Of a stretch of DNA of 64,000 nt, positions 2,122 to 61,593 are shown piece by piece. The position numbers and the translations under genes are program-made. The notes beneath the pieces are model-generated. The model was not told where the DNA came from, made no database searches, and saw only the letters and a list, made by a program, of their open reading frames with translations. This stretch comes from a virus, in IMG/VR virus record IMGVR_UViG_3300025096_000004, positions 62,001-126,000 of that record; one strand, given 5' to 3'. Every line of letters begins with the position of its first letter. Position 1 is the first letter of the stretch.

Positions 2122-2531
2122 CGATACTTAATATATGGTTAATAGTGGCCTTGACTCTTTCGTTAACAGCAAATATTTTGTTGGTGTGGTACCTTCGAAA
2201 ACTTCTTGATAAATTTCTATTTATATCCCAAAACCTTGGTGATTTAGTAGAAATGGTTGAAAATTATCATGCGCACCTCAAACATGTTAATAATATGGAA
2301 ACTTATAATGGAGACGAAACAATAGAGTACTTACTACGCCACACACATAGTTTGATTGATTTAATGGATGATTATAGAGATGTTTACGATATTAGCATAC
2401 CTTTAGAAGGAAAACAGGAGAACCTAGATAATGAAGAACGAGACACCCAAATTGAAGAGGAGGAGGCGGAGCCGGTCTCGATCTCCGAAGAAAATGTATT
2501 TTACGCAGGAACACGAAGACGCAATAGTTAA
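2118..2531 (+). CDS. Single-pass membrane protein with acidic tail
   Basis: A 137-residue protein with one N-terminal hydrophobic helix (about residues 4-25, ILNIWLIVALTLSLTANILL) followed by a basic flank, which suggests an anchor with a cytoplasmic C-terminus. The middle is helical with several His residues. The last 33 residues are strongly acidic (EEEEAEP) before a basic end, TRRRNS. That tail is encoded in the 101 bases shared out of frame with the start of the sigma-factor gene, which explains its composition. The start overlaps the previous stop (ATGA). Function unknown; could be a membrane-tethered regulator or a small virion/lysis component. Confidence 0.65.
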   Translation: MTILNIWLIVALTLSLTANILLVWYLRKLLDKFLFISQNLGDLVEMVENYHAHLKHVNNMETYNGDETIEYLLRHTHSLIDLMDDYRDVYDISIPLEGKQENLDNEERDTQIEEEEAEPVSISEENVFYAGTRRRNS

Positions 2532-3153
2532 ATATGCTCTTACAAATTGCAGAGAGGTAAGGACAGAGCTTTATGTTACGCTGCTTAAACCAGCATTTGA
2601 TGAAATGGTTGATAAAATAGTTTTTACTTATAAATTTACAACTTTGCCAAATATTGATGAATTAAGAGATGAGTGTAAGGTATGGCTAACTACTATTCTA
2701 GATAAGTATGATCCCAACAAGGGGTCCAAAGCTTTTTCATATTTTAGTGTTATAACGAAAAACTGGTTTATTCATAAGGTTAAACAAACAACTCGCCGAG
2801 CAAAGAGAGAAGTTGACTATGAATTGGTTGCAAAAGAAGTTGATGAAAAACTTGTTGATAACAGGAATATCTATGTTGAAACTCGAGAGAAAAAAGAGTT
2901 CTGGCAAAATCTTTGGAAAGAAATCGAAAGTTGGCAACCCGAAATGATGAAAGAGAATGAACGCAAGGTGTATGAAGCAGTAAAAATCCTTTTACAATCT
3001 GTGGATCAGATTGATATTTACAACAAAAAGGCGGTTTATCTTTATTTGAGAGAATTAACTGATTTAAACACTAAACAAGTTGTTAATCAACTCAATAAGA
3101 TGAGAAAAAAATATAAGGTATTTCGGAGGAATTGGGATGACGGGAAAATTTAA
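2431..3153 (+). CDS. T4 gp55-like late-transcription sigma factor
   Basis: A 240-residue protein. Residues 84-119 (VWLTTILDKYDPNKGSKAFSY and on to WFIHKVKQ) match sigma region 2 as in T4 gp55: the FDPxKxxxFxxYxxxxxxN pattern that binds the RNA polymerase clamp and melts the -10 region. As in gp55 there is no clear region 4. T4 gp55 has 185 residues; the extra length here is an N-terminal Arg/Ser-rich stretch (RRRRSRSRS, residues 10-18) and a longer C-terminus. The start has AGGAG 10 bases upstream, better than the internal ATG at 2494. The first 101 bases overlap the previous gene out of frame. It should direct host polymerase to late promoters. Confidence 0.8.
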   Translation: MKNETPKLKRRRRSRSRSPKKMYFTQEHEDAIVKYALTNCREVRTELYVTLLKPAFDEMVDKIVFTYKFTTLPNIDELRDECKVWLTTILDKYDPNKGSKAFSYFSVITKNWFIHKVKQTTRRAKREVDYELVAKEVDEKLVDNRNIYVETREKKEFWQNLWKEIESWQPEMMKENERKVYEAVKILLQSVDQIDIYNKKAVYLYLRELTDLNTKQVVNQLNKMRKKYKVFRRNWDDGKI

Positions 3154-3171: not shown

Positions 3172-3477
3172 ATGGCAAGCGAATTAGATAAATATTTACA
3201 AGAGACAGTGGACAATATCCGCAATGATAGAGAGGTCACCAAAGAATTGTTAGATGATGCAATGAAATGGTTAGCCAAGGACGAATCTCGTCATCGTGAG
3301 TTGGGACTTGTATTATCAAAATATGTTGAAACATTGCAGAGATCAAATGAGCAGTTGGTAAAAGTGGCCTCTCTTATTTCAAAAAAAGCATCATCCCAAG
3401 ATCTTACTGATGATGACAAAGAGCAAATATTTGATATGATCAAGGGAGATGAAAAAGATGAAACATCACAATCCTGA
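3172..3477 (+). CDS. Conserved phage protein, helical, unknown
   Basis: A 101-residue, almost fully helical protein (LLDDAMKWLAKDESRHRELGLVLSKYVETLQRSNEQL) with a charged tail. I recognise the type from large aquatic myophages but know no function. It has no cysteines or membrane segment. It overlaps the following transglycosylase gene by 20 bases and follows the sigma factor after 18 bases. Its position at the boundary between expression genes and tail-tip enzymes, and its helical character, would suit a small virion or assembly protein; this is a guess. Confidence 0.65.
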   Translation: MASELDKYLQETVDNIRNDREVTKELLDDAMKWLAKDESRHRELGLVLSKYVETLQRSNEQLVKVASLISKKASSQDLTDDDKEQIFDMIKGDEKDETSQS

Positions 3478-4642
3478 TTTGTTAGCAGATGATCATAGTC
3501 TAAGTCAAGTTCGTCAAGATATGGAGGATGATATAATTAAAGATGCTTTTTTTGATTTTACCAAAGGTAAGAGAAATTGGAGAGCAGTTTGTTTGACCGA
3601 TTCGGACTCATCAGATAAAAAAATGATAAATTCGCTAGATGGCTCTCGACTGCCAATCAAACTAAGAGTGTTGGATACATTGGATTCTGTTCTACCCAAC
3701 CCCTGTGCTCTTAAGTTTTCTGAGCCCGAGGTGAAAAAGATAGTTTCACTTTACCCAACCGGATGGTCAACACAGCCATTCGAAAATCGATACTCTTTGC
3801 CGTCATTTGGGCATGTATTAAGGGTCTCTTTTAATGAAAAAGGCCCCGCCGAACAAGGCCGCCACAGAGGTCTTCAGTACACATATAAGACAGATAAAGA
3901 AACAGAACGTTACGACTGTGAAACACGAAAGTTTATGGGCGGCCTAACTAGTTTTACAGGAAGAAATGCTAGATTATTGAGGTCTGTTGCCCCCGGTGCC
4001 GCCGGACCTCATGGCGCCATAGGCCCTCCTCTTGGCGCCGCCTCTTGGGATGACACCGTCGGCGCGGGTGAAACACATTGGTCTAATGAAGATACGAAGA
4101 ATAACTATATGGACAGCAATCACTCTAATCGAAATTCATATGATGATTTGATTGTCAAGTGGTCGTCTCAATATAATATTGATCCAAATTTGGTCAAAGC
4201 ACTCATATGGGCCGAGAGTGGTTTTAAAATCAAAGCTCAATCGAACAAAGGCGCCTCCGGCCTGACTCAGATCATGCCAGATACTCAAGAGAGTATTAAT
4301 AAAGTTTTAAAATATAAAACAATAAATTTGGGAGATCCCGACCAAGCGGTTCATTTTGGCGTTTATTATCTTGTAAGAAAAATAAATCAAGTCGCAGAGA
4401 AGAATTATGTAGACAAATATAAGGACGTCGAAAATGTAAACGCCGGCGGTAAAGGATATAGTGCGCTTGAATTGGGCTTAATATCATATAACTCTGGTCG
4501 AGGAAACTTGGTAAAATACGGCCCAAAGACAGTTATGGGTGAGAGATGGGACTGCAAAAACAACGCTTGTGGTCAAACAAGAAAATATGTTCGAAAGGTG
4601 ACAGCATGGTATGAATGGCTCCTCGCGAATGAAAAATTATAG
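3458..4642 (+). CDS. Virion-type lytic transglycosylase with shared N-terminal module
   Basis: A 394-residue protein. Residues 1-145 form a module shared with the next two genes (start NPDLLADDHSLSQ; core VLPNPC, then IVSLYPTGW, then a GHVLRVSF strand), which recalls OB-like domains of phage baseplate hub proteins. A Gly/Ala/Pro linker (about 175-200) leads to an SLT-type transglycosylase domain (about 225-394): WAESGF holds the catalytic Glu253, followed by GASGLTQIMPDT and ISYNSGRGN. It would cleave glycan strands between MurNAc and GlcNAc. The ATG at 3458 has GGAG 9 bases upstream; the in-frame ATG at 3449 touches that site and is unlikely. Probably a tail-tip enzyme for cell-wall penetration rather than a free endolysin. 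Confidence 0.85.
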   Translation: MKHHNPDLLADDHSLSQVRQDMEDDIIKDAFFDFTKGKRNWRAVCLTDSDSSDKKMINSLDGSRLPIKLRVLDTLDSVLPNPCALKFSEPEVKKIVSLYPTGWSTQPFENRYSLPSFGHVLRVSFNEKGPAEQGRHRGLQYTYKTDKETERYDCETRKFMGGLTSFTGRNARLLRSVAPGAAGPHGAIGPPLGAASWDDTVGAGETHWSNEDTKNNYMDSNHSNRNSYDDLIVKWSSQYNIDPNLVKALIWAESGFKIKAQSNKGASGLTQIMPDTQESINKVLKYKTINLGDPDQAVHFGVYYLVRKINQVAEKNYVDKYKDVENVNAGGKGYSALELGLISYNSGRGNLVKYGPKTVMGERWDCKNNACGQTRKYVRKVTAWYEWLLANEKL

Positions 4643-4657
4643 AAAGAGGTACGCAAA

Positions 4658-6025
4658 ATGACTTATTTAAATCCTGACTTGATAGCTGATGATTTTTCGC
4701 TAAGCCAAATTCTCGAGGAGAAGGTAGCGAATCAACATGATGATATTTACAATAATACAATTAGGGGCAAGGAGCATTTTACAAGCAGGGTGATAACAAA
4801 CAGCGCATTACGCGGAAAAGATGAAAACTATACTGGCCGTCATTTTTTCTGTAAGGCACGTCCTCTTGACACAATGCATGATCATTGTGTTCCTGATCCA
4901 TGCACCAACCACAAGCTTGGAAAGGAGCAGCAAAAATTATTAATTAGCCTTCATCCCACTATGGTCTCCAAGAGTCCAATGAATGAGAATCAACGACCGC
5001 CAAGGTTTAGTGATAAGATAAAAATGTCTTTTTATGGAGAGGGTCCAAATGGAATGACAGCAAAAATGCGCGATATTAGATATTCCCACAAAAGCAAAAT
5101 AGATGAATTTCAATATGCATGCGCTTTTGAAGAGATAGAAGAAATGGCAGGTATGTTTGGATCTGGCCTCCCTTCAGAGCCCTTAAACCGATCAGGTGGG
5201 AACAGAAAACAGAGAGGTGACTTCCCCGACGCCAGTCTTTTTCACAACACGACTGACGGCCTCCCTGACAACCCATCGCCCAACATCCCCGGTCCATTTT
5301 CGAAATATTATGATTGTTCTAAAAAATATAAGTATACAGGCCAGCACCCTGACTTTCAAGGTCAAGAAATATATAATGGCCAATTTCCCAATGAACTCTT
5401 GGCCCTTGCTAAACACGGAAAAGGCGGCGGTGCTGGGCAAGAGAATGGAAAAACCATTTTGGCTCGCGAGGCTGTTAGATCATATGATGAAATGGCAAAA
5501 GCATATCACGCCGACACCGGCCGCGATCTTGTTGCTTCGGGCTATCGCCCGGTATATCGTCAACAGGACGCCCGCCAAGATGCTATTAAAAAATATGGTT
5601 CTCATTCCGGCTCGAAGGCATACAAAAAAACTGCAACCCCCGGAAATTCAAAGCATGGCCTCGGCCTTGCCGTCGATTTTAAGAATGGTAACATTGATCA
5701 CAGTGTCTATGGTTGGACAGATAAAACATATTATTGGTTGGTTGACAATGCCAATGCCTTTGGCTGGTACCACCCTTCTTGGGCTGCAAAGAATGATGAT
5801 AATGAACCGTGGCATTGGGAATATAAGTTTGCAGATAAAATTTTAAAGCTGAATACTGAATCCAAATCAGAAGCCCGAGCACGTCGAAGAGCTTTTGAGA
5901 AAGCCAACAAAATCGATTGCTCCAAGCGCAATCCAAAACTAAAAGTTTCGATAGATCCACTTGACACTGATACGACTTTATTTGATAGTCCTTTACTTAT
6001 TCAAATTCAACAGGGAGTGGCATAG
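4658..6025 (+). CDS. M15 (VanY-type) peptidoglycan peptidase with shared module
   Basis: A 455-residue protein. Residues 1-145 repeat the module of the flanking genes (NPDLIADDFSLSQ; CVPDPC; LLISLHPTMVS; RFSDKIKMSFYGEGP; MRDIRYS). After a low-complexity region (165-215) comes an M15-family zinc peptidase (about 245-395): SGYRPVYRQQ, SKHGLGLAVDF with ligands His333 and Asp340, and EPWHWEY with catalytic Glu383 and ligand His386. This family cuts D-Ala-D-Ala or peptide cross-links in peptidoglycan. Paired with the transglycosylase it would open both glycan and peptide bonds during injection. Gap to the next gene is 3 bases. Confidence 0.85.
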   Translation: MTYLNPDLIADDFSLSQILEEKVANQHDDIYNNTIRGKEHFTSRVITNSALRGKDENYTGRHFFCKARPLDTMHDHCVPDPCTNHKLGKEQQKLLISLHPTMVSKSPMNENQRPPRFSDKIKMSFYGEGPNGMTAKMRDIRYSHKSKIDEFQYACAFEEIEEMAGMFGSGLPSEPLNRSGGNRKQRGDFPDASLFHNTTDGLPDNPSPNIPGPFSKYYDCSKKYKYTGQHPDFQGQEIYNGQFPNELLALAKHGKGGGAGQENGKTILAREAVRSYDEMAKAYHADTGRDLVASGYRPVYRQQDARQDAIKKYGSHSGSKAYKKTATPGNSKHGLGLAVDFKNGNIDHSVYGWTDKTYYWLVDNANAFGWYHPSWAAKNDDNEPWHWEYKFADKILKLNTESKSEARARRRAFEKANKIDCSKRNPKLKVSIDPLDTDTTLFDSPLLIQIQQGVA

Positions 6026-6028
6026 ATT

Positions 6029-7690
6029 ATGGGCGTTGAATATTATACAAATAATTTAGATGCTCTTGCTGATGATCATTCTTTAAGGGATATGCGTCGT
6101 CAACTTCTTTCTGATGCTTTGGATCAAAATGAGTTTAACACAAAAAAAAGAAGAAATGAATATATTGGTACTGTTCTTTCGAACGAGCAAGAGGCGGATT
6201 TCCCACAGGCCTCCGCCGGAGGCCAATCTATTGCTGTAAAGGTAAGGCTCGATGAAGCTCAAGAAGAATATTTGCCAGATTTTTGTGCTGACACTTGGAC
6301 TGAAAAGCAAAAATTTATTCTCTTGTCTTGTCATGGATCCGCCGTTAGTCATACTCCGCTCGTCGATGATAACGGCGAAAGAGTTCCTAAATTTGGGGAT
6401 CGATTGAGTCTTTTTTTCTCTGAGGAGTCTCCTGATTTCTATGGGAGAATGAGGGATTTAAGATATAGATACCCAACTAGCGAGGGGGAGATGTGGAAAA
6501 AGAAGTGCCCTCCAGCAAAACCATTTCTATTAGCTGAGATTGTCGGAGACAAGATTCAAATCAATGAAGAAATATTTTTTGCTTTTGACAAATGGGATAT
6601 AAAAGAAGTCAGCTTTAAAGTTTTATCCGCTGTTGCAAAAATCCTTAAAGCCAATCCAAGAATAAAAATCAAACTTGATGGACACACTGATAGTCGTGGC
6701 AGCAATAAATATAACATGGCTCTTTCCAAAAAGAGAGTGGCTTCTGTTTTTAAGCACTTAACAGAAGTAAACGGAGTGTCGGCATCTCAAATACCAAAGC
6801 GACAGGGCCATGGCGAAACAAAGCCATGGAGCAAGTTGTGTGACCAATATGGGGATCACCTCAAGAGAAACCCACCTAACACACCTAGAGGAAAAAAAGA
6901 ATGGACCTATTGTCACGCCAAAAACCGTCGGGTTGAATTTAATATTATTGAAGGATTGGAATCCGGCGCTGCTAGTTATGGCTCCGCCACCGCAACTACC
7001 GAACCCACCAAAACCGCCGCCGAATCCACCTCTGAAGCAGACACCTCTTCTGAAAAAAGACGAAAACATGAGGAAAAGGCCAAAGAGGGTCAAGAAGATC
7101 CATCTAAACCAGAAGAAGTCCGCGACGATCCTTCCCAATCCGAAGCATACATAGAAAAATCAGCAGAAACAAATTCAGAAAATTGGCAAAAGTGGTATGA
7201 ACATAAACTATCATCAGAAACAGATCCTGTCATGAGATCGACTCTAGAAGAATATATTCAAAATGAAAAGAATTATAGAAGAGATCGCCCTTATGGCGAA
7301 GACCCCATAAACATTTATCCGCCCCGCTGGCGCGGAGGAAATTCTTTAGAAGAGTGGCATAGACCTGCACCTCAAACAGATTTCGAGACAGGCCACAACA
7401 CTCCCTCTTCCGGTGATGCCTATGCTTGGGTGCCGTCAGTGGACATGACCATCGAGGCCGCCAAGGGATATATGGAACATCAACAGAGCAAGATGCAAGA
7501 TTTGTTTAACGAGTATGAACTACAACACAAAAAAGAAGGATATGACGCAGTCAATGAGTTTCTTCCTGATCCATGCGCCCCCGGGCTTTCTGAACAAGAA
7601 CGTCAACGAATTTTGTCAATGTACCCACTAGACCACCCACTCAGGACGGGAGAGAGGGATTGCTATGGCATCCCTGCTGATGCGGGCTGA
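6029..7690 (+). CDS. OmpA-like peptidoglycan-binding virion protein with shared module
   Basis: A 553-residue protein. Residues 1-148 are the third copy of the module (LDALADDHSLRD; YLPDFC; FGDRLSLFF; MRDLRYRY). Residues about 171-316 are an OmpA C-terminal-like domain: FFAFDKWDIK, then GHTDSRGSNKYNMALSKKR, with Asp221 and Arg236 at the positions that bind diaminopimelate of Gram-negative peptidoglycan. A Thr/Ser/Glu-rich linker follows (about 320-385). The C-terminus (507-540, EFLPDPCAPGLSEQE then ILSMYP) repeats the central part of the shared module, a partial internal duplication. The likely role is to dock the tail tip on the cell wall beside the two hydrolases. Confidence 0.82.
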   Translation: MGVEYYTNNLDALADDHSLRDMRRQLLSDALDQNEFNTKKRRNEYIGTVLSNEQEADFPQASAGGQSIAVKVRLDEAQEEYLPDFCADTWTEKQKFILLSCHGSAVSHTPLVDDNGERVPKFGDRLSLFFSEESPDFYGRMRDLRYRYPTSEGEMWKKKCPPAKPFLLAEIVGDKIQINEEIFFAFDKWDIKEVSFKVLSAVAKILKANPRIKIKLDGHTDSRGSNKYNMALSKKRVASVFKHLTEVNGVSASQIPKRQGHGETKPWSKLCDQYGDHLKRNPPNTPRGKKEWTYCHAKNRRVEFNIIEGLESGAASYGSATATTEPTKTAAESTSEADTSSEKRRKHEEKAKEGQEDPSKPEEVRDDPSQSEAYIEKSAETNSENWQKWYEHKLSSETDPVMRSTLEEYIQNEKNYRRDRPYGEDPINIYPPRWRGGNSLEEWHRPAPQTDFETGHNTPSSGDAYAWVPSVDMTIEAAKGYMEHQQSKMQDLFNEYELQHKKEGYDAVNEFLPDPCAPGLSEQERQRILSMYPLDHPLRTGERDCYGIPADAG

Positions 7691-7741: not shown

Positions 7742-8713
7742 ATGCCAACAGATAAGAAAAAACATGTAAATCAATTGTGCTTAAAGCCAAATAACCCCTT
7801 GACCTTTTGGAAAAAATTGGGCTATCCCCCCGGTCAATTTTGTACTGCATTAGATGAATATTTTCCAAAACTTGAAAGGGCGGGCTGTGAAGTGATTTAT
7901 AGTGGCAAAAATAATAGCGATATTGTCCTTGGGCGAGATCGAGATGCCTCTCTTGCGTCTGGATACGGCGGGTCTGGTGGAACTCAATGTGGAATGATTG
8001 ATATTGTTGTCGGCCGCTTGGCATGTCAACCAGTTCAAAAATGTGAGGTTATTACTGGTCCGAATTTTTGTGATGACGGTGCTCGTATTTATTTAACCCA
8101 ACGAGGAGATATAGATAAATATTTTGGTCTCCCCAAGGGAAAGGTTAGTGGGAAAACGGATAATAGTGCAGCCATTGGCATTAAGTCTGATCATACTAGA
8201 ATAATTGGCAGAGAGACAGTTAAAATATATGCTGGCCAAGGAGATTTTCAAGGCTTGGGTATGAATGGTGAACGAAATTCCAAGGGTGGCAGTATTGACC
8301 GTCGTGGGGTTATTGAATTGATAGCTGGATATCGAGATCCTAAATACATCCATCCCGCAGTCTTGGGAACTAACTTAGTAGAGTGTCTAAAGGGGCTTTA
8401 TAGATTAATAGCTCAAACTTTTTCTGCGCTTCATCACACTCACCTTATTCAATCGAAGATGTATGTTGCACTGTCCGGACATTCACACCAAGGCACCGGC
8501 ATCGGTGCTATTACTACTTTTCCAGACCCAATGTTGACTTACAAATCATTCAAGTCTTTTGCAAAAGCCGCCGCTTCCGGGTTTGATGACATGTTGTCGA
8601 TTATGAACACAGCTAGAGACGAGATGGAATATTGCGGCGTGGGTGATCCTAAGACAGGAGATCTCATTCCCGGATGGAAAAATATAACGAGTACAAAAGT
8701 CTTTTTAACATGA
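7742..8713 (+). CDS. Probable baseplate/tail-tip structural protein
   Basis: A 323-residue protein after a 51-base gap and a GGAG site. The middle holds short beta-repeat-like text (ARIYLTQRGDIDKYFGLP, then SAAIGIKSDHTRIIGRETVKI). I associate the pattern AIGIKxDxxRIIGRExxKI with baseplate or spike-type proteins of large phages, where it forms stacked strands. Cysteines (C17, C33, C48, C82, C94, C100, C110) are frequent in the first third. The C-terminal part has a His-rich stretch (SGHSHQG). It follows the three cell-wall proteins and precedes a giant virion protein, supporting a tail role. The exact T4 counterpart is not clear. Confidence 0.6.
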   Translation: MPTDKKKHVNQLCLKPNNPLTFWKKLGYPPGQFCTALDEYFPKLERAGCEVIYSGKNNSDIVLGRDRDASLASGYGGSGGTQCGMIDIVVGRLACQPVQKCEVITGPNFCDDGARIYLTQRGDIDKYFGLPKGKVSGKTDNSAAIGIKSDHTRIIGRETVKIYAGQGDFQGLGMNGERNSKGGSIDRRGVIELIAGYRDPKYIHPAVLGTNLVECLKGLYRLIAQTFSALHHTHLIQSKMYVALSGHSHQGTGIGAITTFPDPMLTYKSFKSFAKAAASGFDDMLSIMNTARDEMEYCGVGDPKTGDLIPGWKNITSTKVFLT

Positions 8714-8720
8714 GGTAAAT

Positions 8721-11700
8721 ATGGCAGAAAAAACAATAAGGGATTTCCAGACAGATGTTTGTGAACCCCTAAAACCCCCTACACCAGAAAGAGCCTGTCC
8801 AGAGTGTATACCCAACCCAGATGCAATTCTTGAGGATTGGACGCTTTCTGATGGAGAGCCGTTTTTTAACGAACGAACGTGTGAATATCAAGTTGCAGTT
8901 ATGATTAACCAAGATGGTGATTATTATCGTGCGAAAGAACTCCGCGAAGCTGATGAGAAGGGCATAGATTTTGAAATGGTTTTACAGTCCTTTGTCCTTC
9001 CCGGGTTGCGAATAATGCTTAGATATTATGATAAAGACGAATCCGATAAATTTGTGTGTGCCTTCCCGCCAGAATTCGAACACCAATATGAAAAGTCCGG
9101 TGGTGAGTCCGCCACCGAAGTTGTCACTGCTATGGGAGTTGGTTTTTTATGGGGCGGTATACCGGGAGCCATCATTGCTGGTGGGCTTGAGGTCGCCTCC
9201 GAAGTTGCAGAATGGGTTATGGATGAGAAGACCACGGAAGACAGAGCCGCCGAGGGACAGAGCGGCACAGGAGATTCAGACAAATATGGATATGACCGCG
9301 TTGCTGAGGACTACGAACGGACCCAAAATGAGATTGTGGAGGATTATAAAAATATGGTCGAAATGAGAGAAAATAATATCTCAAAGCAATCTCTTCGCTG
9401 TCGATCAATTTATAAACAAATGGTTGACGGAACACTGCCAAAGCATTTTCACAGCCAAGTCACAAAGAAGATAGAACTAACAACTGGTTTGCCAGATGGA
9501 AGTACTTTTGAAATAGTCATCCCAAACCCAAGTGGTCTTTTGGCATACCAAGAATCCAATAATGAAATTAAAAACCCTGATGCTTTGGAATTGTACGCCA
9601 GAGCAATAGATTTTGACTATGGACAAACCCCGGGCGAACCAATGATGGTTTTGGTATCAATTCCTTCCTATATAATGGACAAGGTTCCTCCCCATCCAAC
9701 TCCTGAAATAACCGATTTTTCCGGTCCACAAGAGGTCGTGCTCGATGGCCCACGAATATATGCCATGACAAGTCGATTGTCTGAAGCTTTAAGAGTTTAT
9801 GGCAATTATCAGGCGTATTGGTGGCAAACAGAGCGAGCTACCCTGTATCAGAAAATGATGCTACCAGATGGCACATTTGTTTCTCAAACCACCGGCGGCG
9901 CGGGAGCAGCCTTCTCAGAATCTTCTTTAATTAGTGAGATGGTCGGAGGCAGCGTAGAGGTGGAAACCCCAACAGATTATGAATTAGTTGGTGATCCACA
10001 AGTATTTTATATTATTCAATACCAACAAGCAATTGTCGATTTTTATATGGCTTTACAGGAATTATTGGAAAAAAATGATTTTCGTTTAACCGCATGGCCC
10101 AATTTTCTAGGAGATCGAGCAGAAGAGGTTAAAATAGTATTTGAACAAGTTGAGCCCCCAGACACAACCAAGTCCACCGACCCATCGACACCCGCCCCCT
10201 CTGGACATTTTAAAATAAAATCAGTTTGGGCAAAATATGATTTATGTGGTTGGCACAAAATGAAACAAATGGGGGGATTCTTAAACCACCCCTCGGTGAG
10301 GAACGAAACAATAATGGGGTATGTTTCCAGATTACCAGAAATAGATACCGCTTTGACTGCAAAGTCGACACCCCCGTGGTTAGATTTTATTGTTCAATAC
10401 ACATATCCTCCTTTGGATGTCAGATATCATTCTGATGCTGGTTCCCAAGGAAAACCTGCTGTCGGTGGCTGTTTTCCACTGGGCGAAGGGGGCGCGGAAG
10501 CCTTTAGAGATTGGGTTTTTAACTCAGTAATGTCCCTTGGAGAAGCTGTTGCATATCAATTTAACAAATCTTCTTGTAAGTTGCTGACAGATCCTACATA
10601 CCGCCCAACAGAAAAAAAATGGGCCGACTGGCGCAAAGGACAACGAGAAGAACACATAAAAAGAATAAACGAACACTATGCTCGAGAAGAGGCCACCATT
10701 ATGGCCGCAGGTCAAAGAATTAGAGAAAAGGAGTATAAAGATCCTCTCACAAAATCCGCAGACTACCAAGCCCAGCAACAAGCCCTTCAGTCTAGCAGGG
10801 ACAATAGAAAGGAGGCCCTTAATCATCCTTACAGGTCCGCCGCCATTGATGCCGCTTTACAAGAGTTTGATATGGATAGTTCCCTGATTGGTCTTTTTAT
10901 AGATCAAGCTGAACTTCGTAAACTCGGCCTTGGCACATCAATTTGGAAAGGCTTTAAGGGAACACTTGGGGGTAAAGACCCCGGAGTTAGTAAATTTGAA
11001 ATGTTCAAGACTAGAATAGATAAGTGTGGTTTTTCAGCGATGCTGTTCAAAACAATCCAGTGCTTAATGGGCGGCGTCACCGCCGCCGCCGCTTACGACG
11101 CCGCAGCGAAAGCCTTACTTAAATCTTTAGAGAAGGCCAATTGGGAGATTTTATTTGTTGGTATACCTTATCACAAACAGATTGAAATAAAGGACAGAGT
11201 TAACAAAGAAATGGGTAATTTGCCTCCCCCTTGGGAGTGGGTTCCCGGAAAGAATGAAATTCCTGATGATAAAATGAAAGTTGTTGAGCATGCCGACAAT
11301 GTTAAGTCTTATGAGCAACAAATCATGATAAATGACGAAAAATTGCAATCGCTGGACACCGAGTGGTTCGGTATTAATGATTCCATAGATCAGACCATGG
11401 CAAAACAGAGCCTCGCCCAGAACGATGATGAAAGACAGACATGGTTTGATATGCAAAAAGAACTAGAAAAAAAGCAATCTGACGTCGATGACCGGATGGA
11501 GGACATAAAGCGCCAAAACAAAAAATTGAAAGCAAAGACTGGAGCTTTCTGGAAATCTGATGATAAGGCCTATAGTGATTTTAAGGCTTTGTCTGACGAC
11601 GACAAAGAAAGAATCAGAAAGGAAACAGCAGCTTATCAAAAATCTCTCGGTTCAGACCCACAGAGTCGATATACTCAAGGCTCTGTCGGCGGAGGTTTGG

Positions 11701-14700
11701 GAAAAGCACAACAAGCAGCTTTTGACATCTATATTGATGCGATTATCGAAGTTTGGGGCGGCGAGCATGTTTTAAACTTTTGCGAAAGGTTTCCCGGAGC
11801 TAAGTTTATAGTTGATGCGATTAGGAGATGGGATTGTCCATATCCAAATCTTTTTAATCCACCAGCCGGCTCCTTTATGGAATCATTTAGTTTGGATATT
11901 TGTTCTGGAGATGCAAGTGGCAAATTGTCGATGCCTCATTTAATGTCTTTTGGTAACCTTACTTGGACAAATATTATTAAGATTTTGTGGCAAGCGATAT
12001 TGAAACAAGTAACTGCATCTCTTTTTAAGGTCTTGGTTACAATGATAGTAAAGGTATTGCAGATTCTGGAATCTGCCCTTTGCAAAGCTATAGAGCTTGC
12101 GGGCCGCTTGGCTGTGAACCTCATTACTCCCGGCGATCAAGGTGGGTTCATGGGGGCAATTTCGGATGTTTTTTGCGGCGACCAAGGGACTGCTGATGAT
12201 GAGCAGGTTACCGCTTCAAATCTTTTTTCTGCTTTGGGAATTAATCCCTCTGATATTCAAGGAATGAATCAAGAAGATCTCATGGATTCCCACATGAAAG
12301 TCGCTCAAACGCTGTCATCTGTTAGTACAAGAAATGAGATAAAAGAATTATTTATTTCAGATTCGCGTGATCATGACCAAAACGTTCTTAGAAGAATATC
12401 AAAAGCAGTATCGTTAGTCAATCCAGAATATGCTTCTATTTTTTCTGACCCCAATAATATTTCACAGCTTTTCGCAGCCGCGAAGAATTATTTAACACCA
12501 ACTCAGCTTATGGCCCTCCGAGAGGAATTGGATGCACCAGAGGATGATGTTCCTGTTGACGATAGTATTTGTTTGACCAAAGCCCAACTTGACAAGTGGA
12601 ATGAAGATAGAGAAGCTATATTTTCCGAGCTTCCCGGTGATTTGGCCAAAGAGTGGGTAGATAAACAAAACGATAAGGCAAAAACCGATCTAATTGAGGT
12701 TTGCTCGTTGGCCGCGAGAGGGGTTGACGGACCCATGCGCGATGAGCTTGATAAATTACTTAACTTTGAAACCGCCATGGGAGATCCGGCATGTAAAAAA
12801 AATACATCTGCCATCAGTTTTCGGACTCCCGAGACCGACGCTGCTGATGAAGAAGCTGCAAGTGGCATCTTTCGATCTTTGACAAAAGAATTTCAAAAAG
12901 ATATGATTGGCGGCGGCTGGATTTGGAACAAGTATGGGGTGGTTGATCATATGCTTGCGGATAGGAGAGGAACCCCTCTTAGAAAACATGAAAATAGAGT
13001 TAGATCGAGCTTTTTATGGCCCAGTTGGGCGAATACTCAAGAGGATTATGAAGCGAAAAAAGATGATTTAGCTGAATTTCTTGGCATTCCTGAAGATTTT
13101 ATAGATTGGATTTTGCCAGAAGATGCTTCGGGGATCTTCCCCGATACAGTTGGGATCTTGTTGCAAGATGAGTTATTTAAAAATGATTTCCATTCTGATC
13201 CAAAGTTTTCATATGGTTCCGGTACAAGCATCGCCCCACAGACCGGCTTAAAAGAGCGGTGGTTTGGAATTGATTATAGTTTTACCTATTCAAAGCCAAT
13301 TATGAAAGATGCAGATATGATTTGGACATATAAGGACAATTTGACTCCCCTTGAGACAGACAAGTCAGAGTATGGTTTTGCAATGCATTATCGTTCTTTT
13401 ATTATTAATGGTTTGAATACAAGCGAAACACCAATGGTATCAACCAAGTTTGATTATGAAATTAGTCTAGATTCTCACCTATATTACAATGAATCCATCG
13501 ATCCCGAAACCGGTGTTGCATCTCCAATGCCTGAGAGTGTCGTCAGTATAGAGAAATTTAGAATGAAGGTACAAAATGATATTGATCACCCTCGTCAAGA
13601 AATCATAGATTCATTGGAAATTCAATCATCGGACCTTGCTTCTATGAAATATACCTATGAAAGCCTTTTATGGTGGAAATATTGTGAAAGCAGGTGGTCT
13701 GAATTTGGCGTTTCTTTATCAAAATTTAACCTTGCGGAAACATCTTGGAAAAATATTTCTGGAAAAATGTTTGAAGATGTTGCCAACATGATGATGAATC
13801 CAAATGGAGATATTGCCAGTGGGTTTAAATATGGATATACCTCCGATTCATCGATTGGCTTTAAAGATCTCTTATATGTTAACCCCGGAGCAGACCCCGA
13901 TGATGAGAGTACGTGGGAATATACATACGATGAAGAAGAAAAAGTTTTGGGCAAATCAGCCACTAATAACCCTAGGGTCCACTTTCTTGACCCCGATATT
14001 CACGGCGGTTGGTATTCGTGGCCCAAAGTTTATGTGGATAGGTTTGAATATTCTGGCCTTTTAAGTGTGATTCAAATAATGGTTCCAGATATTGATGGTT
14101 GTCCACCCAAGACGACTGATTTTTTAGATTGGAAATATTTGTCTAATCGCCAAGTAGAAGTCAAGCAAAAAATGATTCCTGACAAGCGTTTGACAAAGGA
14201 TGAAGAGTGTGTGAAAAAAATCCCATTTGATCTTATTCAAACAAATGATATTCATGGTTATATCGAGGCATCGGTCCTTGCAACAGTTCGAACTTATGTT
14301 TCTGAATTCATATTGAGGTCCTTGCCTGTAATATCTGCTTTGGAATTTAATGATAGAAACTATGATGATGCTCTTGCGCAAATGATAGTGCAAAATATGG
14401 AAACAGAGTTGCCGGATCAGGGCTCGTGGCTTGACTGGACTTGGATTAAGCGATATGATTATTGGCTACACTTTTTAGAACAAGCATATCAAATAGTAGA
14501 ACGCAGAATCGATCTGAAAGAGTTACACCCCACTGAAGAAATGAACGAGGTTATTGATGCTATAAAAAAGATTCAAAGAAGTTATGTTCATGTTAACAAT
14601 GACGTAATGGAGAATCTTGAGAAGAACATCCACGCCGAATCTTTGCCACATCTTAGGGACAAGTACCCTGACGAAGATGATGAATATTTTAGGGGCCGGA

Positions 14701-16229
14701 GGGTTTTGTTCCTGAACGATGACCCACGACCCAAGGATGCAGATTATCAAATAATGAAGGGAGCGTCTATCATTTATTTTGGTCGAACCGCTGATCAAAT
14801 AACGCGATTTAGAAGACAAGGTAAAGCCAAATGGTATGATGGTATGGAGACTAGGTTCTCTAATAACTTTTTTACTATAGTTCATGCTCGACGATGTGCA
14901 AAATTATATTCTTTACATCGAGGCCGCAAGCATTGTAAAAAAATGTTAAAACATCTTGTAAAAGAAGAATTGCAAAACTATGCTGAAAAGATCTATAATA
15001 CTCTAAAGCCTGCTGCAACCATAACAAGTTTATCAAAATATTACATTGGAGCCAGTAATTCAATAATTAACGGTGGTTTGCGAACTGGAATCGCAGCCAC
15101 TGAAACTCCACATCCAGCAACTCTGGAATCAACTGGGGAAGTAATTGAAACCTATATTGAGTCTATCGGTGATTGTGTCGACGTTAGTTCTGATATAAGC
15201 CTATATAATCCTTTAGATGCTGAAGGTCTTGTTGTTCCTGATCTCGATGCCGGACAATTTGTAGTTGAGAAGTATGTGAGAATAATCGACAAGCCAGAAA
15301 ATGAAAGCGAAAATGTACCAGATTTTATAAAAAATAGACCAGATAATTTGAGGGGTGTTGTTAGTATAAAGGAATTCAGAAAATTTGTTAATGAGAATAT
15401 GATTAACAATCCACTATTTGACCAAGAAGCCTACAATTTGTCCGATTTGTTTGGCGATGCAGAGCTTTTAAGAAATTTGCAGGAAAAACCCACCGGCCTC
15501 ATTGGCTCTGTCGGGTTTAGATTTGGAGTTCGATTGAGTTTAGTTCCTCCTAATGGATTTACTGTCCCTGAACCAGACTCCGATATGCTAAAAATTGCCC
15601 AACGAGAAAAGGCCTTTTATTTAAAGAAATCTTCGCAAGGGGGTATGAATACGAGACATATTTTCCCGCTTGCAGTATTTGAAAAGGATATTTTGGATGA
15701 TAAAATATCAAAAATTGATTGGGAACATGAAGCTTTTGGAGAAGATTTTCGATGCTATATTGACAATTTAGTTGAAACTCCACAGTTTAGATTGGTTTTT
15801 GATAATATATTTCCACTTCGCCGGGCTTCTTCTATGGTTGCGATATACACCAATTTTGGTTGGCTTCCATCTATAGGAAAGTCCGACAAAGAACGAGATA
15901 CGGCATGGGGCGACCGACCAATACTTCTGGGAGGCTTGGCTGACCCCGATTCACAAGAGATTTGGGGTGAGGGCCTATTTGAAGGCACTAAAATATCCTG
16001 CTATAGGATGTTCCATGGTTTCTATGAATCGGATAGTTGGGATTGGGGATGGGACTGGAATTATGATTTTAACTTTTCAATTTGGTTTAAAGACATGATG
16101 CCAAAGATATTTATGAATATTGATCCTACAACCCGTTGGTGGCAACGATGGAGGATTGAGAGAGACCGTCCCTTTGATAAAGATGGCGAACAATGTGATC
16201 ATCTTTTGTCAAATTTATTTGTTTGGTGA
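8721..16229 (+). CDS. Giant virion structural protein (2502 residues)
   Basis: One uninterrupted frame of 2502 residues with GAGG before the ATG. The N-terminus is Cys/Pro-rich (CEPLKPPTPERACPECIPNP). Hydrophobic stretches occur near residues 133-165 (VVTAMGVGFLWGGIPGAII) and 1084-1135 (IIKILWQAILKQ to LAVNLI); a charged coiled-coil-like stretch lies near 855-935. I see no enzyme motif. A mix of hydrophobic helices and long mixed regions resembles large internal or baseplate proteins of big aquatic phages, which may be ejected or span the tail tip. It lies directly before the gp25/gp6 wedge genes. A tape-measure role is less likely, because the protein is not mainly helical. Confidence 0.7.
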   Translation: MAEKTIRDFQTDVCEPLKPPTPERACPECIPNPDAILEDWTLSDGEPFFNERTCEYQVAVMINQDGDYYRAKELREADEKGIDFEMVLQSFVLPGLRIMLRYYDKDESDKFVCAFPPEFEHQYEKSGGESATEVVTAMGVGFLWGGIPGAIIAGGLEVASEVAEWVMDEKTTEDRAAEGQSGTGDSDKYGYDRVAEDYERTQNEIVEDYKNMVEMRENNISKQSLRCRSIYKQMVDGTLPKHFHSQVTKKIELTTGLPDGSTFEIVIPNPSGLLAYQESNNEIKNPDALELYARAIDFDYGQTPGEPMMVLVSIPSYIMDKVPPHPTPEITDFSGPQEVVLDGPRIYAMTSRLSEALRVYGNYQAYWWQTERATLYQKMMLPDGTFVSQTTGGAGAAFSESSLISEMVGGSVEVETPTDYELVGDPQVFYIIQYQQAIVDFYMALQELLEKNDFRLTAWPNFLGDRAEEVKIVFEQVEPPDTTKSTDPSTPAPSGHFKIKSVWAKYDLCGWHKMKQMGGFLNHPSVRNETIMGYVSRLPEIDTALTAKSTPPWLDFIVQYTYPPLDVRYHSDAGSQGKPAVGGCFPLGEGGAEAFRDWVFNSVMSLGEAVAYQFNKSSCKLLTDPTYRPTEKKWADWRKGQREEHIKRINEHYAREEATIMAAGQRIREKEYKDPLTKSADYQAQQQALQSSRDNRKEALNHPYRSAAIDAALQEFDMDSSLIGLFIDQAELRKLGLGTSIWKGFKGTLGGKDPGVSKFEMFKTRIDKCGFSAMLFKTIQCLMGGVTAAAAYDAAAKALLKSLEKANWEILFVGIPYHKQIEIKDRVNKEMGNLPPPWEWVPGKNEIPDDKMKVVEHADNVKSYEQQIMINDEKLQSLDTEWFGINDSIDQTMAKQSLAQNDDERQTWFDMQKELEKKQSDVDDRMEDIKRQNKKLKAKTGAFWKSDDKAYSDFKALSDDDKERIRKETAAYQKSLGSDPQSRYTQGSVGGGLGKAQQAAFDIYIDAIIEVWGGEHVLNFCERFPGAKFIVDAIRRWDCPYPNLFNPPAGSFMESFSLDICSGDASGKLSMPHLMSFGNLTWTNIIKILWQAILKQVTASLFKVLVTMIVKVLQILESALCKAIELAGRLAVNLITPGDQGGFMGAISDVFCGDQGTADDEQVTASNLFSALGINPSDIQGMNQEDLMDSHMKVAQTLSSVSTRNEIKELFISDSRDHDQNVLRRISKAVSLVNPEYASIFSDPNNISQLFAAAKNYLTPTQLMALREELDAPEDDVPVDDSICLTKAQLDKWNEDREAIFSELPGDLAKEWVDKQNDKAKTDLIEVCSLAARGVDGPMRDELDKLLNFETAMGDPACKKNTSAISFRTPETDAADEEAASGIFRSLTKEFQKDMIGGGWIWNKYGVVDHMLADRRGTPLRKHENRVRSSFLWPSWANTQEDYEAKKDDLAEFLGIPEDFIDWILPEDASGIFPDTVGILLQDELFKNDFHSDPKFSYGSGTSIAPQTGLKERWFGIDYSFTYSKPIMKDADMIWTYKDNLTPLETDKSEYGFAMHYRSFIINGLNTSETPMVSTKFDYEISLDSHLYYNESIDPETGVASPMPESVVSIEKFRMKVQNDIDHPRQEIIDSLEIQSSDLASMKYTYESLLWWKYCESRWSEFGVSLSKFNLAETSWKNISGKMFEDVANMMMNPNGDIASGFKYGYTSDSSIGFKDLLYVNPGADPDDESTWEYTYDEEEKVLGKSATNNPRVHFLDPDIHGGWYSWPKVYVDRFEYSGLLSVIQIMVPDIDGCPPKTTDFLDWKYLSNRQVEVKQKMIPDKRLTKDEECVKKIPFDLIQTNDIHGYIEASVLATVRTYVSEFILRSLPVISALEFNDRNYDDALAQMIVQNMETELPDQGSWLDWTWIKRYDYWLHFLEQAYQIVERRIDLKELHPTEEMNEVIDAIKKIQRSYVHVNNDVMENLEKNIHAESLPHLRDKYPDEDDEYFRGRRVLFLNDDPRPKDADYQIMKGASIIYFGRTADQITRFRRQGKAKWYDGMETRFSNNFFTIVHARRCAKLYSLHRGRKHCKKMLKHLVKEELQNYAEKIYNTLKPAATITSLSKYYIGASNSIINGGLRTGIAATETPHPATLESTGEVIETYIESIGDCVDVSSDISLYNPLDAEGLVVPDLDAGQFVVEKYVRIIDKPENESENVPDFIKNRPDNLRGVVSIKEFRKFVNENMINNPLFDQEAYNLSDLFGDAELLRNLQEKPTGLIGSVGFRFGVRLSLVPPNGFTVPEPDSDMLKIAQREKAFYLKKSSQGGMNTRHIFPLAVFEKDILDDKISKIDWEHEAFGEDFRCYIDNLVETPQFRLVFDNIFPLRRASSMVAIYTNFGWLPSIGKSDKERDTAWGDRPILLGGLADPDSQEIWGEGLFEGTKISCYRMFHGFYESDSWDWGWDWNYDFNFSIWFKDMMPKIFMNIDPTTRWWQRWRIERDRPFDKDGEQCDHLLSNLFVW

Positions 16230-16302: not shown

Positions 16303-16683
16303 ATGTCATCCCCTAAAGCCGCACCAAAATTACCAATTGAAATTGTTAATGGAACAGTTGATTCATTTGATATTTCTGAAGTACAAGAGATTGTAAAACA
16401 AAATGTCAAAATGGTTGTATTAACTTATCCCGGAGAAAGGATAATGATGCCAGAGTTTGGCGTAGGTATGCCAAGATATCTTTTTGAACAAGCAGGTTCT
16501 GAGATCCCAGCAGAACTTAAAATGATTATAAGAGACCAATTGAAAAGATATATTCCATCTATTAATTTATTAAATGTCTCTGTAAGATCCGGTTTTGATG
16601 ATCATAAATTAAATGTTTCGATATCTTATGAGATTGACTTTTTAAGTATAAAAGATCGACTAGATTTGTTATTGGAGTATTAA
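16303..16683 (+). CDS. T4 gp25-like baseplate wedge protein
   Basis: A 126-residue protein, close to T4 gp25 (132 residues). IVKQNVKMVVLTYPGERIMMPEFGVG (residues 30-55) is the family signature: a helix, a strand and the PGER/MxPxFG turn, followed by LFEQAG. gp25 sits in the inner baseplate at the sheath contact and belongs to the gpW/gp25 family, whose members start sheath assembly. It has AGAGG before the ATG and is followed after 45 bases by the gp6-like gene, the usual wedge pairing. Confidence 0.9.
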   Translation: MSSPKAAPKLPIEIVNGTVDSFDISEVQEIVKQNVKMVVLTYPGERIMMPEFGVGMPRYLFEQAGSEIPAELKMIIRDQLKRYIPSINLLNVSVRSGFDDHKLNVSISYEIDFLSIKDRLDLLLEY

Positions 16684-16728: not shown

Positions 16729-18534
16729 ATGGCAAGAAAAAAACAAATTCCAATAAAATATACTAGTAGAGATTTTATTTCCATAAAGAGTGAACTAATA
16801 GAACACGCAAGGAGATATTATTCCGAAACGTATAAAGACTTCTCCGCCGCATCTTTCGGTTCTTTAGTTATAGATACTGTTTCTTATGTGGGAGATGTGC
16901 TATCATTTTATTTGGACTATCAGGCAAATGAGAGTTTTATGGAGACTGCCATTGAGTCAGAAAATGTCCGCCGCCATGCCAAAAATTTGGGATATAAATA
17001 TAATACAAATAGTAATTCTTTTGGTTTTGTTTCGTTGTATATTATAGTTCCATCAAATTCCGATGGCTCTTCTCCTGATTTTTCTTATGTGCCAATTTTA
17101 AAATGGGGCTCATCATTTAAATCATCAACTGGTGCCGAATATAGTTTAACAGAAAATGTCGATTTTGGGAATGCGAAAAACGATATTGTATCTGCCCGAT
17201 TTGATTCAACCACTGGTATGACTACTCATTTTGCAATCCGTGCGATAGGCCAAGTGGTGTCCGGCCAGACTGGTGCCATATCGCTTGATTTAACTTCACA
17301 TCCTTTTGAAAAATTCAAGCGTGTCCGCCTTGGTGGAACAGATATCACTGAAGTCATTTCAATAACGGATAACGAAGGTCATATATGGTATGAGGTTGAT
17401 AATTTGTCTCAGGAGATAGTATTTTTGGATACGACCAACCGCAATGCTTTTAACGATGGCGTCCCAAGTATTATTAAACCATTTGTTGCAGCTAGGCGAT
17501 TTGTTGTGGACCAAGGTCCAGAAGGAACATATTTGCAATTTGGCAATGGGTCTGATTTGTCAACACAAGTAACGGGACTCCTCGAGCCAACCCGAGTTGG
17601 CATGAAACTTTATGGAAAAAGAAATATCTCCTCTTTATCATTTGACCCCACTCACCTGATTAATTCTGGAAAACTAGGTATGTGTCCAAGTGGCAAACAC
17701 CTTCGAGCAGTAGTTAAGATAAATCCTTTCACGCAGGGATATTCTTCTCCTGTTGGGTCGATAAACACTGCTCTCACTTTCGAACTTCAATTTGAAGATC
17801 CAACTTCTCTAGATCCAACGATCATAAACTCAATCATAGATTCTCTAGAAGTAAACAACGACGATCCCATTGTTGGGTCTAATGAAGAACTGACAAAAGA
17901 TGAAATTAAAATAAGAGCAAGGGCCCACTATGCAATGCAAAACAGAGCAGTAACCGCCGGCGATTATGAATCGTTGGTTTACTCTATGCCGCCTAATTTT
18001 GGCACAGTCAAAAGGTGTAATATTATAAACGATCCGTCTTCTGCAAATCGCCGACTGGCTATGTATGTCATCTCTGAAAATGAAGACGGCCACCTAACCT
18101 CAACAAACAATATTATAAAAAATAATTTAAAAAACTGGATATCGATATATCGTTCCATAAATGATGTTGTCGATATACTTGATGCAAAGGTTGTAAATTT
18201 TGGTGTTGAATTTTCTGTTGTAACGTCCGCACAGTACAATTCGCAGGATGTCATACAATCTGCAATTTATGAACTACAAGAATATTTTAAGGATGGTATG
18301 TATATTGGAGAACCTTTGTATCTTAGTGAGATTTATAGGGCATTGAATTCAACTCCCGGCGTTGTTGATGTGAAAAATGTTAAGATAAATATTAAATCTG
18401 GCGGAGTGCATTCCGCTAACACTCTAGATTTAGATGAAATATTGTCCCGAGATGGTACATACTATAAGGTTCCAAAAAATGTAATAATGGAATTGAAGTT
18501 CCACCAGTTGGATATTAAAGGTATTATTAGATAA
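16729..18534 (+). CDS. T4 gp6-like baseplate wedge protein (baseplate J family)
   Basis: A 601-residue protein (T4 gp6 has 660). The N-terminus, KYTSRDFISIKSELIEHARR then FGSLVIDTVSYVGDVLSFYLDYQANESF, is the typical gp6/baseplate-J start. Later come FGNGSDLSTQ, DEIKIRARAHYAMQNRAVTAGDYESLV (about 385-415) and a C-terminal SEIYRALNSTPGVVDVKNV, all family features. gp6 dimers form the continuous ring that joins the baseplate wedges and moves during contraction. The last base of its stop is the first base of the next gene's ATG. Confidence 0.92.
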   Translation: MARKKQIPIKYTSRDFISIKSELIEHARRYYSETYKDFSAASFGSLVIDTVSYVGDVLSFYLDYQANESFMETAIESENVRRHAKNLGYKYNTNSNSFGFVSLYIIVPSNSDGSSPDFSYVPILKWGSSFKSSTGAEYSLTENVDFGNAKNDIVSARFDSTTGMTTHFAIRAIGQVVSGQTGAISLDLTSHPFEKFKRVRLGGTDITEVISITDNEGHIWYEVDNLSQEIVFLDTTNRNAFNDGVPSIIKPFVAARRFVVDQGPEGTYLQFGNGSDLSTQVTGLLEPTRVGMKLYGKRNISSLSFDPTHLINSGKLGMCPSGKHLRAVVKINPFTQGYSSPVGSINTALTFELQFEDPTSLDPTIINSIIDSLEVNNDDPIVGSNEELTKDEIKIRARAHYAMQNRAVTAGDYESLVYSMPPNFGTVKRCNIINDPSSANRRLAMYVISENEDGHLTSTNNIIKNNLKNWISIYRSINDVVDILDAKVVNFGVEFSVVTSAQYNSQDVIQSAIYELQEYFKDGMYIGEPLYLSEIYRALNSTPGVVDVKNVKINIKSGGVHSANTLDLDEILSRDGTYYKVPKNVIMELKFHQLDIKGIIR

Positions 18535-49855: not shown

Positions 49856-50257
49856 ATGTGGTGGCTTGCAGCTAAAAAGTGGCTCAAGATATCTGCTATA
49901 TGGTGCAGGCAACACTGGCGATGGGTCGTTTTAGGCGGCTTTGCGCTAGTGATGTATTATTTTGGGAGAAAGGCCTCTAAAGCCCAACTGATTCAAGCCA
50001 AGCTTGCTCTTAAATCATATGAAGCCGAAAAAGCTGCAATTGAGCGAGCCCATGCAAAAGAAGTCGAAGATATAAAAAAAGCACAGGCTAATTACTCTAA
50101 AGCTTTGGCACACATAAGCCAAAGATATTCTGGAGAGACCAATTCTTTAAAAATCAAAGAAGAGAAGAAGATTCGAGATATGATCAAGAAAGCTAAGGAT
50201 GATCCTGAAGAAGTTGATAGGATCTTAGAACAAGAACTGGGAATTAAAAAAATATGA
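49856..50257 (+). CDS. Membrane-anchored coiled-coil protein, spanin-like
   Basis: A 133-residue protein. A Trp-rich N-terminus and one hydrophobic segment (about 22-36, WRWVVLGGFALVMYY) precede a long charged coiled coil (40-133; EAEKAAIERAHAKEVEDIKKA). Type II anchoring with a periplasmic coil is the layout of inner-membrane spanins (Rz) of Gram-negative phages, but many phage proteins look like this and no partner lipoprotein is seen. It lies 3 bases after the holin-like gene without an obvious Shine-Dalgarno, suggesting translational coupling, and overlaps the next small gene by ATGA. Confidence 0.6.
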   Translation: MWWLAAKKWLKISAIWCRQHWRWVVLGGFALVMYYFGRKASKAQLIQAKLALKSYEAEKAAIERAHAKEVEDIKKAQANYSKALAHISQRYSGETNSLKIKEEKKIRDMIKKAKDDPEEVDRILEQELGIKKI

Positions 50258-60563: not shown

Positions 60564-60598
60564 ATGAGCTATTCAAGTGATAAAAAACATAAGTTAAT
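60564..60598 (+). repeat. 35-base direct repeat, copy 1 (start of DGHHRW genes)
   Basis: The first 35 bases of the two DGHHRW genes are identical (60564-60598 and 61559-61593), and similarity continues beyond with single changes. This points to tandem gene duplication or conversion of the leader. Confidence 0.9.
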
Positions 60599-61562: not shown

Positions 61563-61593
61563 GCTATTCAAGTGATAAAAAACATAAGTTAAT
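61559..61593 (+). repeat. 35-base direct repeat, copy 2
   Basis: Second copy of the sequence at 60564-60598, again beginning with the ATG of a DGHHRW gene. Confidence 0.9.

Follow-up and report, generated by a model that had tools for sequence, protein, structure and literature searches.

Predicted OB-fold modules carrying exchangeable wall-active cargo at a putative tail-tip locus of uncultured marine T4-like phages

Three consecutive genes share an N-terminal module and differ in cargo

The window analysed here is a 64,000-nucleotide stretch of viral DNA (positions 62001–126000 of the 191,495-base IMG/VR record IMGVR_UViG_3300025096_000004), and near its start lie three consecutive open reading frames (ORFs; genes 1–3) on one strand, whose products share an N-terminal module of about 145–165 residues and continue into different cargo (Table 1). 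A preliminary description, made from the sequence without database searches, had proposed such a trio of cell-wall proteins built on a module of roughly 145 residues. Searching the genome with gene 1 bears this out, as genes 2 and 3 were matched at E-values of 1.7e-17 and 3.2e-14 with 29–30% identity, in both cases confined to the N-terminal 150–160 residues or so, and these E-values rule out chance similarity of the three N-termini. The end of the array had been placed correctly at 7690, but its first ORF begins at 3449, nine bases before the proposed start of 3458. We found no further copy of the module when a profile of the three was run against ORFs of at least 50 codons from tiled stretches of the 191-kb record. 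As for the motifs that had been listed for the module, ADDxSL is the only one present in all three copies, while PxPC, SLHP and MRDLRY are composites across the sequences, reading PNPC, PDPC and PDFC; SLYP, SLHP and SCHG; and HRGLQY, MRDIRY and MRDLRY in genes 1, 2 and 3, respectively.

The proposed cargo (a transglycosylase, an M15 peptidase and an OmpA-type peptidoglycan binder) was recovered in full, with all three Pfam scores well over the curated cut-offs and the characteristic motifs intact. These are ESGF at residue 256 and GLTQIMP at 271 in the SLT domain of gene 1, SKHGLGLAVD at 331 and WHWE at 385 in the M15 domain of gene 2, and GHTDS and LSKKR in the OmpA domain of gene 3. All three cargo domains have PDB homologues of the kinds to be expected, among them D-Ala-D-Ala carboxypeptidases for the gene 2 cargo (1e-11) and Pal/OmpA-like chains for the gene 3 domain (3e-14). 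All three proteins finish in cargo or linker, the spike-like sequence being a separate gene, and Pfam and PHROG scans detected no gp27-like or beta-helix region in them. Near its C-terminus, and absent from the preliminary description, gene 3 carries a second, partial copy of one segment of the module, which scored a domain E-value of 8.7e-4 with the profile of the three modules and 4.5e-6 in another search, and was missed by the broader final iterated profile. This helical repeat was seen in no other member of the family.

Table 1. Features of the locus, in window coordinates
Feature	Coordinates	Strand	Match
Late-sigma-like gene, upstream border of the locus	2431..3153	+	phrog_234, 2.1e-4
Conserved ORF of ~100 residues, between sigma-like gene and first module gene	3172..3477	+	
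Gene 1, module + SLT lytic transglycosylase, 397 residues	3449..4642	+	
Shared module of gene 1, about residues 1–148	3449..3892	+	
SLT domain (PF01464) of gene 1, residues 234–358	4148..4522	+	Pfam 1.8e-21
Gene 2, module + M15/VanY D,D-peptidase, 455 residues	4658..6025	+	
Shared module of gene 2	4658..5089	+	
VanY/M15 domain (PF02557) of gene 2, residues 268–389	5459..5824	+	Pfam 6.7e-17
Gene 3, module + OmpA peptidoglycan-binding domain + charged low-complexity stretch + C-terminal tail, 553 residues	6029..7690	+	
Shared module of gene 3	6029..6472	+	
OmpA domain (PF00691) of gene 3	6575..6829	+	Pfam 1.3e-15
Partial repeat of the PDPC...LS..E...I.SMYP segment of the module, C-terminus of gene 3	7532..7630	+	
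Spike-like gene, 323 residues, 'IVLGRDR...IRIIGRE' family, next downstream of the modules	7742..8713	+	
2502-residue protein, conserved next gene after the spike-like gene (~2000–2600 residues in relatives)	8721..16229	+	
gp25-like baseplate wedge/sheath initiator	16303..16683	+	phrog_261, 1.2e-21
gp6-like baseplate wedge	16729..18534	+	phrog_219, 5.2e-16

The module family occupies one slot in uncultured relatives

Judged by its genes for terminase, portal, gp25, gp6, a RuvC-like resolvase, primase and an SbcC-like protein, the phage is a T4-like myophage. IMG/VR contains over 600 relatives of its portal, and Flavobacterium phage immuto and Microcystis phage Mel-JY01 are the closest isolates when portal and gp6 are compared. 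Relatives, in which module proteins first came to light at the corresponding locus, were found via the portal and then via the sigma-like gene. Scans with the sigma-like and spike-like genes gave 263 loci with both markers and 167 non-redundant loci once those with spike-like proteins at least 95% identical were removed. Between the two markers lie the ORF of ~100 residues and one to three long ORFs. An iterated profile detected the module in 174 of the 199 proteins of at least 200 residues in this interval across the 167 loci, and in a single protein outside it. The module family is large, uncultured and essentially restricted to the slot between the late-sigma-like and spike-like genes, upstream of gp25/gp6.

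Neither Pfam nor PHROGs has a model of the module, and it turned up in no isolate record. Searches of 50,697 phage records (tblastn with full-length gene 3 or the modules) returned cargo matches or nothing, a PDB sequence search with the module profile gave no significant match, and an IMG/VR pattern search with the three-row module alignment found no relative. Searches of IMG/VR with gene 3 and with the spike-like gene retrieved one near-identical contig and nothing else.

Several side observations concern this slot or its flank. By eye, several proteins from the 17 loci without a detectable module resemble diverged versions of it, and in seven such loci (L113, L128, L136, L144, L162, L185 and L284) the N-terminus of the slot ORF differs, and the adaptor may there have diverged or been replaced. 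Six further loci (L145, L148, L179, L221, L227 and L235) encode very long module proteins of ~1100–1340 residues, with a VanY domain deep inside that of L145. Upstream of the sigma-like gene, adjoining the locus, L102, L104, L105, L106 and L107 carry variable islands of glycosyltransferase and nucleotide-sugar/epimerase type.

Cargo is exchanged freely on the conserved module

The preliminary description had put forward a search for other cargo fused to the module, and relatives yielded many wall-hydrolase families. Pfam was run on 124 cargo regions, many of which gave no match; the counts overlap where a region matches two related families. We found VanY (18), Amidase_2 (13), M15_4 (7), SLT (6), M23 (5), DUF2272 (4), Phage_lysozyme2 (4), Phage_lysozyme (PF00959; 3), GDSL lipase/esterase (3), Muramidase (2) and GH19 (2), with Amidase_3, M74, CHAP and OmpA once each, the OmpA cargo being that of the window. 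Three regions gave weak matches to tyrosine/dual-specificity phosphatase-like domains. Examples in which the cargo is not obviously a wall hydrolase, a GDSL esterase or one of these weak phosphatase-like domains, are found at L174:6970-8268, L184:10952-12415 and L124:4863-6602.

Cargo is swapped freely on the conserved module, as closely related copies illustrate. Two copies in L104 have modules that are 83% identical and cargo that differs, with only 30 post-module residues alike, and cargo similarity was not detectable between the third copies of L133 and L184 (modules 72% identical) or between L130 and L157 (70%). We also rejected recent simple whole-gene duplication, since the modules are alike yet the cargo is unrelated.

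The cargo list would also suit a set of lysis-from-within enzymes sharing a binding domain and having no place in the virion, as SLT, M15, amidase and M23 domains are frequent in endolysins. We consider this very improbable: all loci keep the genes in the fixed slot between the late sigma and the spike/gp25/gp6 region, the predicted fold of the module is OB/spike-like (see below), and a possible separate spanin gene (49856–50257, a weak match) lies 42 kb away. A lysis cassette in the usual sense was likewise rejected, as the module genes sit between sigma-like and spike/baseplate genes and not beside a holin or spanin.

The module is predicted to form a helix followed by an OB-like barrel

The module of gene 2 (residues 1–160) was predicted with AlphaFold from an 84-row alignment, giving a mean predicted local distance difference test score (pLDDT) of 79 and a predicted template modelling score of 0.68. 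The model has a helix at residues 12–35, then an OB-like barrel at 37–151, with strands 40–45, 50–52 and 62–69, a helical connection, and strands 101–104, 120–125 and 140–147. In VIA, the rows for the module (Z 5.1–6.5) are mostly OB folds. They include the P1 baseplate (9vzk_q, Z 6.2 over 77 residues at 3.2 Å), Mu (9ki1_V, Z 5.5), VgrG1 (4mtk, Z 5.4), a second VgrG (9jg9), E217 (8eon_F), Pa193 (9b45_g) and SN Orf41 (4ru3). The row for Anabaena phage A-1(L) (8kea_D, Z 5.7, 107 residues) aligns from residue 2 and takes in the helix, but at a root mean square deviation of 7.8 Å. In BFVD, the best match (4.5e-5) is to a protein of a marine virus that bears the name peptidase M23B. The list also has two gp5-type entries, the 'baseplate hub + tail lysozyme' of S-T4 (prob 0.90) and the 'Gp5/Type VI ... 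OB-fold' protein of NIOZ-UU157 (prob 0.92). The structural rows point more firmly to an OB-like fold for the model than to a spike OB, which they only suggest. The comparison with gp5 and hub OB domains that the preliminary description had envisaged thus gave a predicted helix and OB-like barrel, with matches that include phage and type VI secretion system (T6SS) spike OBs and a cyanophage gp5-type hub-lysozyme.

The next gene is a putative spike

The spike-like gene is the next gene after the modules in nearly all relatives' loci, which points to it as the module's partner. Its monomer model has a pLDDT of 87. In immuto, Mel-JY01 and LR756508, a single protein fills the slot from sigma to gp25, and it reads as OB-like at the N-terminus and spike-like in the rest. 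No match was obtained on searching the spike-like proteins against the 50,697 phage records, nor a significant one in a PDB sequence search with the spike profile; HHalign of the module against the isolate OB-spikes was also not significant.

Beyond the spike-like gene lies the protein of 2502 residues, for which Pfam and PHROG scans gave no match, and the locus runs on to gp25 and gp6, the same placement as T4 gene 5 relative to gene 6. The large protein and its homologues in L102–L107 have a conserved N-terminal motif, CPxCxPNPxxxxPxWxxxxxPFLNxxxCxY. Elsewhere in the window, two adjoining genes (60564–61562 and 61559–62458) match the same PHROG (2859) weakly and are possibly paralogues.

A probable gp5*-like adaptor set apart from its putative spike

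In our reading, the module probably serves the tail-tip hub of these uncultured marine T4-like phages, a large group, as an N-terminal adaptor made of a helix and an OB domain, its OB identity and hub position being deduced from the predicted fold and from synteny. T4 gp5 is cleaved at Ser351/Ala352 into gp5*, which comprises the OB and lysozyme parts, and gp5C, the spike (PMC3004832). The module would be the functional counterpart of the gp5 OB domain, each module gene would encode a gp5*-like protein consisting of the OB adaptor and wall-active cargo, and the puncturing, gp5C-like part would be the separate next gene. In Anabaena phage A-1(L), the central spike gp25 opens with a helix that leads into an OB fold, and these helices stand as a tripod on the axis (PMC10966104); the predicted module matches that order. 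Each module protein would take a gp5*-like place on the three-fold axis of the tail, where hub meets spike, with its cargo held laterally. Once the tail has contracted, the cargo would act in the periplasm. The phage of the window would bring an SLT to cut glycan, an M15 peptidase to cut peptide and, in OmpA, a peptidoglycan anchor with no catalytic role. The idea that the module plugs each effector into one and the same virion site, already voiced as probable in the preliminary description, is well, if indirectly, supported by the single-locus module, the cargo exchange and the predicted OB-like fold.

Several results weigh against this reading. The structural matches of the module are middling, with no VIA row at Z 8 or above and no Foldseek hit in the PDB with an E-value better than 0.036, and because VIA scores are equally high for unrelated OB folds (ribosomal proteins, IF-1 and RNase II), the rows are only suggestive of a spike OB. 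Aligned with seven gp5 OB domains, the module profile fell in register at P 0.015–0.022, which is not significant because a reversed control gave 0.044. No gp27-like hub protein was identified; the protein of 2000–2600 residues downstream of the spike-like gene could be the carrier of the missing hub. The putative spike role of the 7742–8713 gene comes from synteny and sequence pattern only. Its profile link to the isolate spikes is weak (E 0.036), if co-linear over 191 columns, and for its model Foldseek and VIA returned helical bundles and no fold match, of which an intertwined trimer may be the cause.

Comparison with known tail tips sharpens what is shared and what is not. As in T4 gp5, an N-terminal adaptor, here only predicted to be of OB type, precedes a wall hydrolase (SLT and M15 here, many families including PF00959 in relatives), the genes lie in the baseplate cluster near gp25 and close upstream of gp6, and adaptor and enzyme would be functionally apart from the spike, which in T4 is achieved by cleavage. 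Unlike T4 gp5, the spike-like part is a gene of its own and the C-terminal triple beta-helix of the gp5 family is absent from the polypeptide, the enzyme is swapped among many families, some loci have two or three paralogues, and the module starts with a predicted helix and is not significantly similar to gp5 in sequence. The preliminary description had contrasted the three genes with the one gp5 lysozyme of T4. That is fair, but a pair of wall activities is also known from the tail tips of other phages, among them A-1(L), whose hub gp15 combines a peptidase and an endoglucanase (PMC10966104). In contrast to the arrangement here, both A-1(L) enzymes sit in one chain, fused to the hub and not to the OB/spike protein.

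The arrangement of OB, spike and lysin in tail tips is variable, as seen in phage P1, where gp5 has an OB and a beta-helix and no lysozyme (PMC9024508), and in Methylophilales phage Melnitz (MZ577097), where an OB-domain protein adjoins a separate hub/lysozyme gene; unlike both, the present locus has a family of predicted OB–cargo fusions with swapped cargo and triplication. Immuto and Mel-JY01 share the synteny of sigma, a protein of ~120 residues, an OB/spike-like protein, gp25 and gp6, but join the OB-like part to the spike-like part, and the chitinase-like lysin of Mel-JY01 is a separate gene. Exchangeable cargo is also found in specialised ('evolved') VgrGs of the T6SS, with a gp5/gp27-like spike scaffold, exchangeable C-terminal effectors and several paralogues per cell. 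However, a VgrG has the gp27-like part, OB and beta-helix spike in one chain with the effector at the end, a combination not detected in the present proteins, whose effector follows a stand-alone, predicted helix–OB module.

Copy number and the composition of the hub

The number of module copies per locus was zero in 17 of the 167 loci, one in 134, two in eight and three in eight, and never higher. On the FastTree phylogeny, the sets of three form about seven distinct groups (the window, L154, L156, L165, L204, L289, and L133 with L184), which we read as about as many independent triplications. With IQ-TREE, L133 and L184 have three orthologous copies in conserved order. In both trees, the modules of one multi-copy locus group together, a pattern that points to recurrent duplication inside the genome with later replacement of the cargo, or else to gene conversion affecting the module. 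One gene of L289 (1553–2164, 203 residues) is a module without cargo, beside two module–enzyme genes.

We tentatively propose that the paralogues, three at most, assemble into a mixed hub, a 1:1:1 heterotrimer in which one particle of the window phage would carry the glycan cutter, the peptide cutter and the wall anchor together. The ceiling of three, its repeated attainment on the tree, the generally different cargo of the copies in one array, the module-only copy of L289 and the retention of three orthologues in L133 and L184 would all fit such a hub, and VgrG heterotrimers have been discussed as a possibility (PMC10433429). Against it, the numbers are small and the pattern was recognized post hoc, most phages manage with one or two copies, gene conversion could give old triplications a recent look, and a study of Serratia came to the conclusion that VgrG1 and VgrG2 do not make heterotrimers (PMC4924876). 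Open-licence literature searches found no paper on a heterotrimeric phage hub and none on this module.

Alternatively, each particle might carry a homotrimer of one paralogue, giving a mixed population that hedges across hosts or wall types. Homotrimers would be functional in the many relatives with a single copy, and distinct T6SS assemblies are set by specific VgrG–PAAR combinations (PMC4924876). We nevertheless regard this as unlikely, as it predicts no ceiling at three copies, and a hub of the OmpA protein only would have no enzyme, so that gene 3 is poorly explained by hedging. A further arrangement would place one paralogue at the axis and the others elsewhere in the baseplate, or have the OmpA protein tie the baseplate to peptidoglycan after contraction. 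The OmpA protein is indeed unusual in its unique cargo, its long charged stretch and its extra partial module segment, but the modules are one family in a single operon adjoining the spike-like gene, and this arrangement seems to us more doubtful still.

Lysins at tail tips, the OB adaptors of gp5 and spikes loaded with effectors are already known. What is new here is a module family not described before, which is encoded apart from the putative spike, exchanges its cargo over a broad range and has been triplicated repeatedly. The occurrence of the adaptor at the same locus with more than 12 other enzymes in ocean phages suggests a plug-and-play tool holder for bacterial entry, an apparently general phage tail-tip adaptor that evolution has loaded with more than 12 unrelated enzymes. 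The family thereby provides a catalogue of probable virion-associated lysins from uncultured ocean phages, their virion place being deduced from fold and synteny, with modular effector loading comparable to that of VgrG. Finally, the recurrent halt at three copies raises a testable question, whether the hub of a contractile tail can be a heterotrimer of different effectors; if so, the three-gene ceiling would reflect the three-fold symmetry of the hub.

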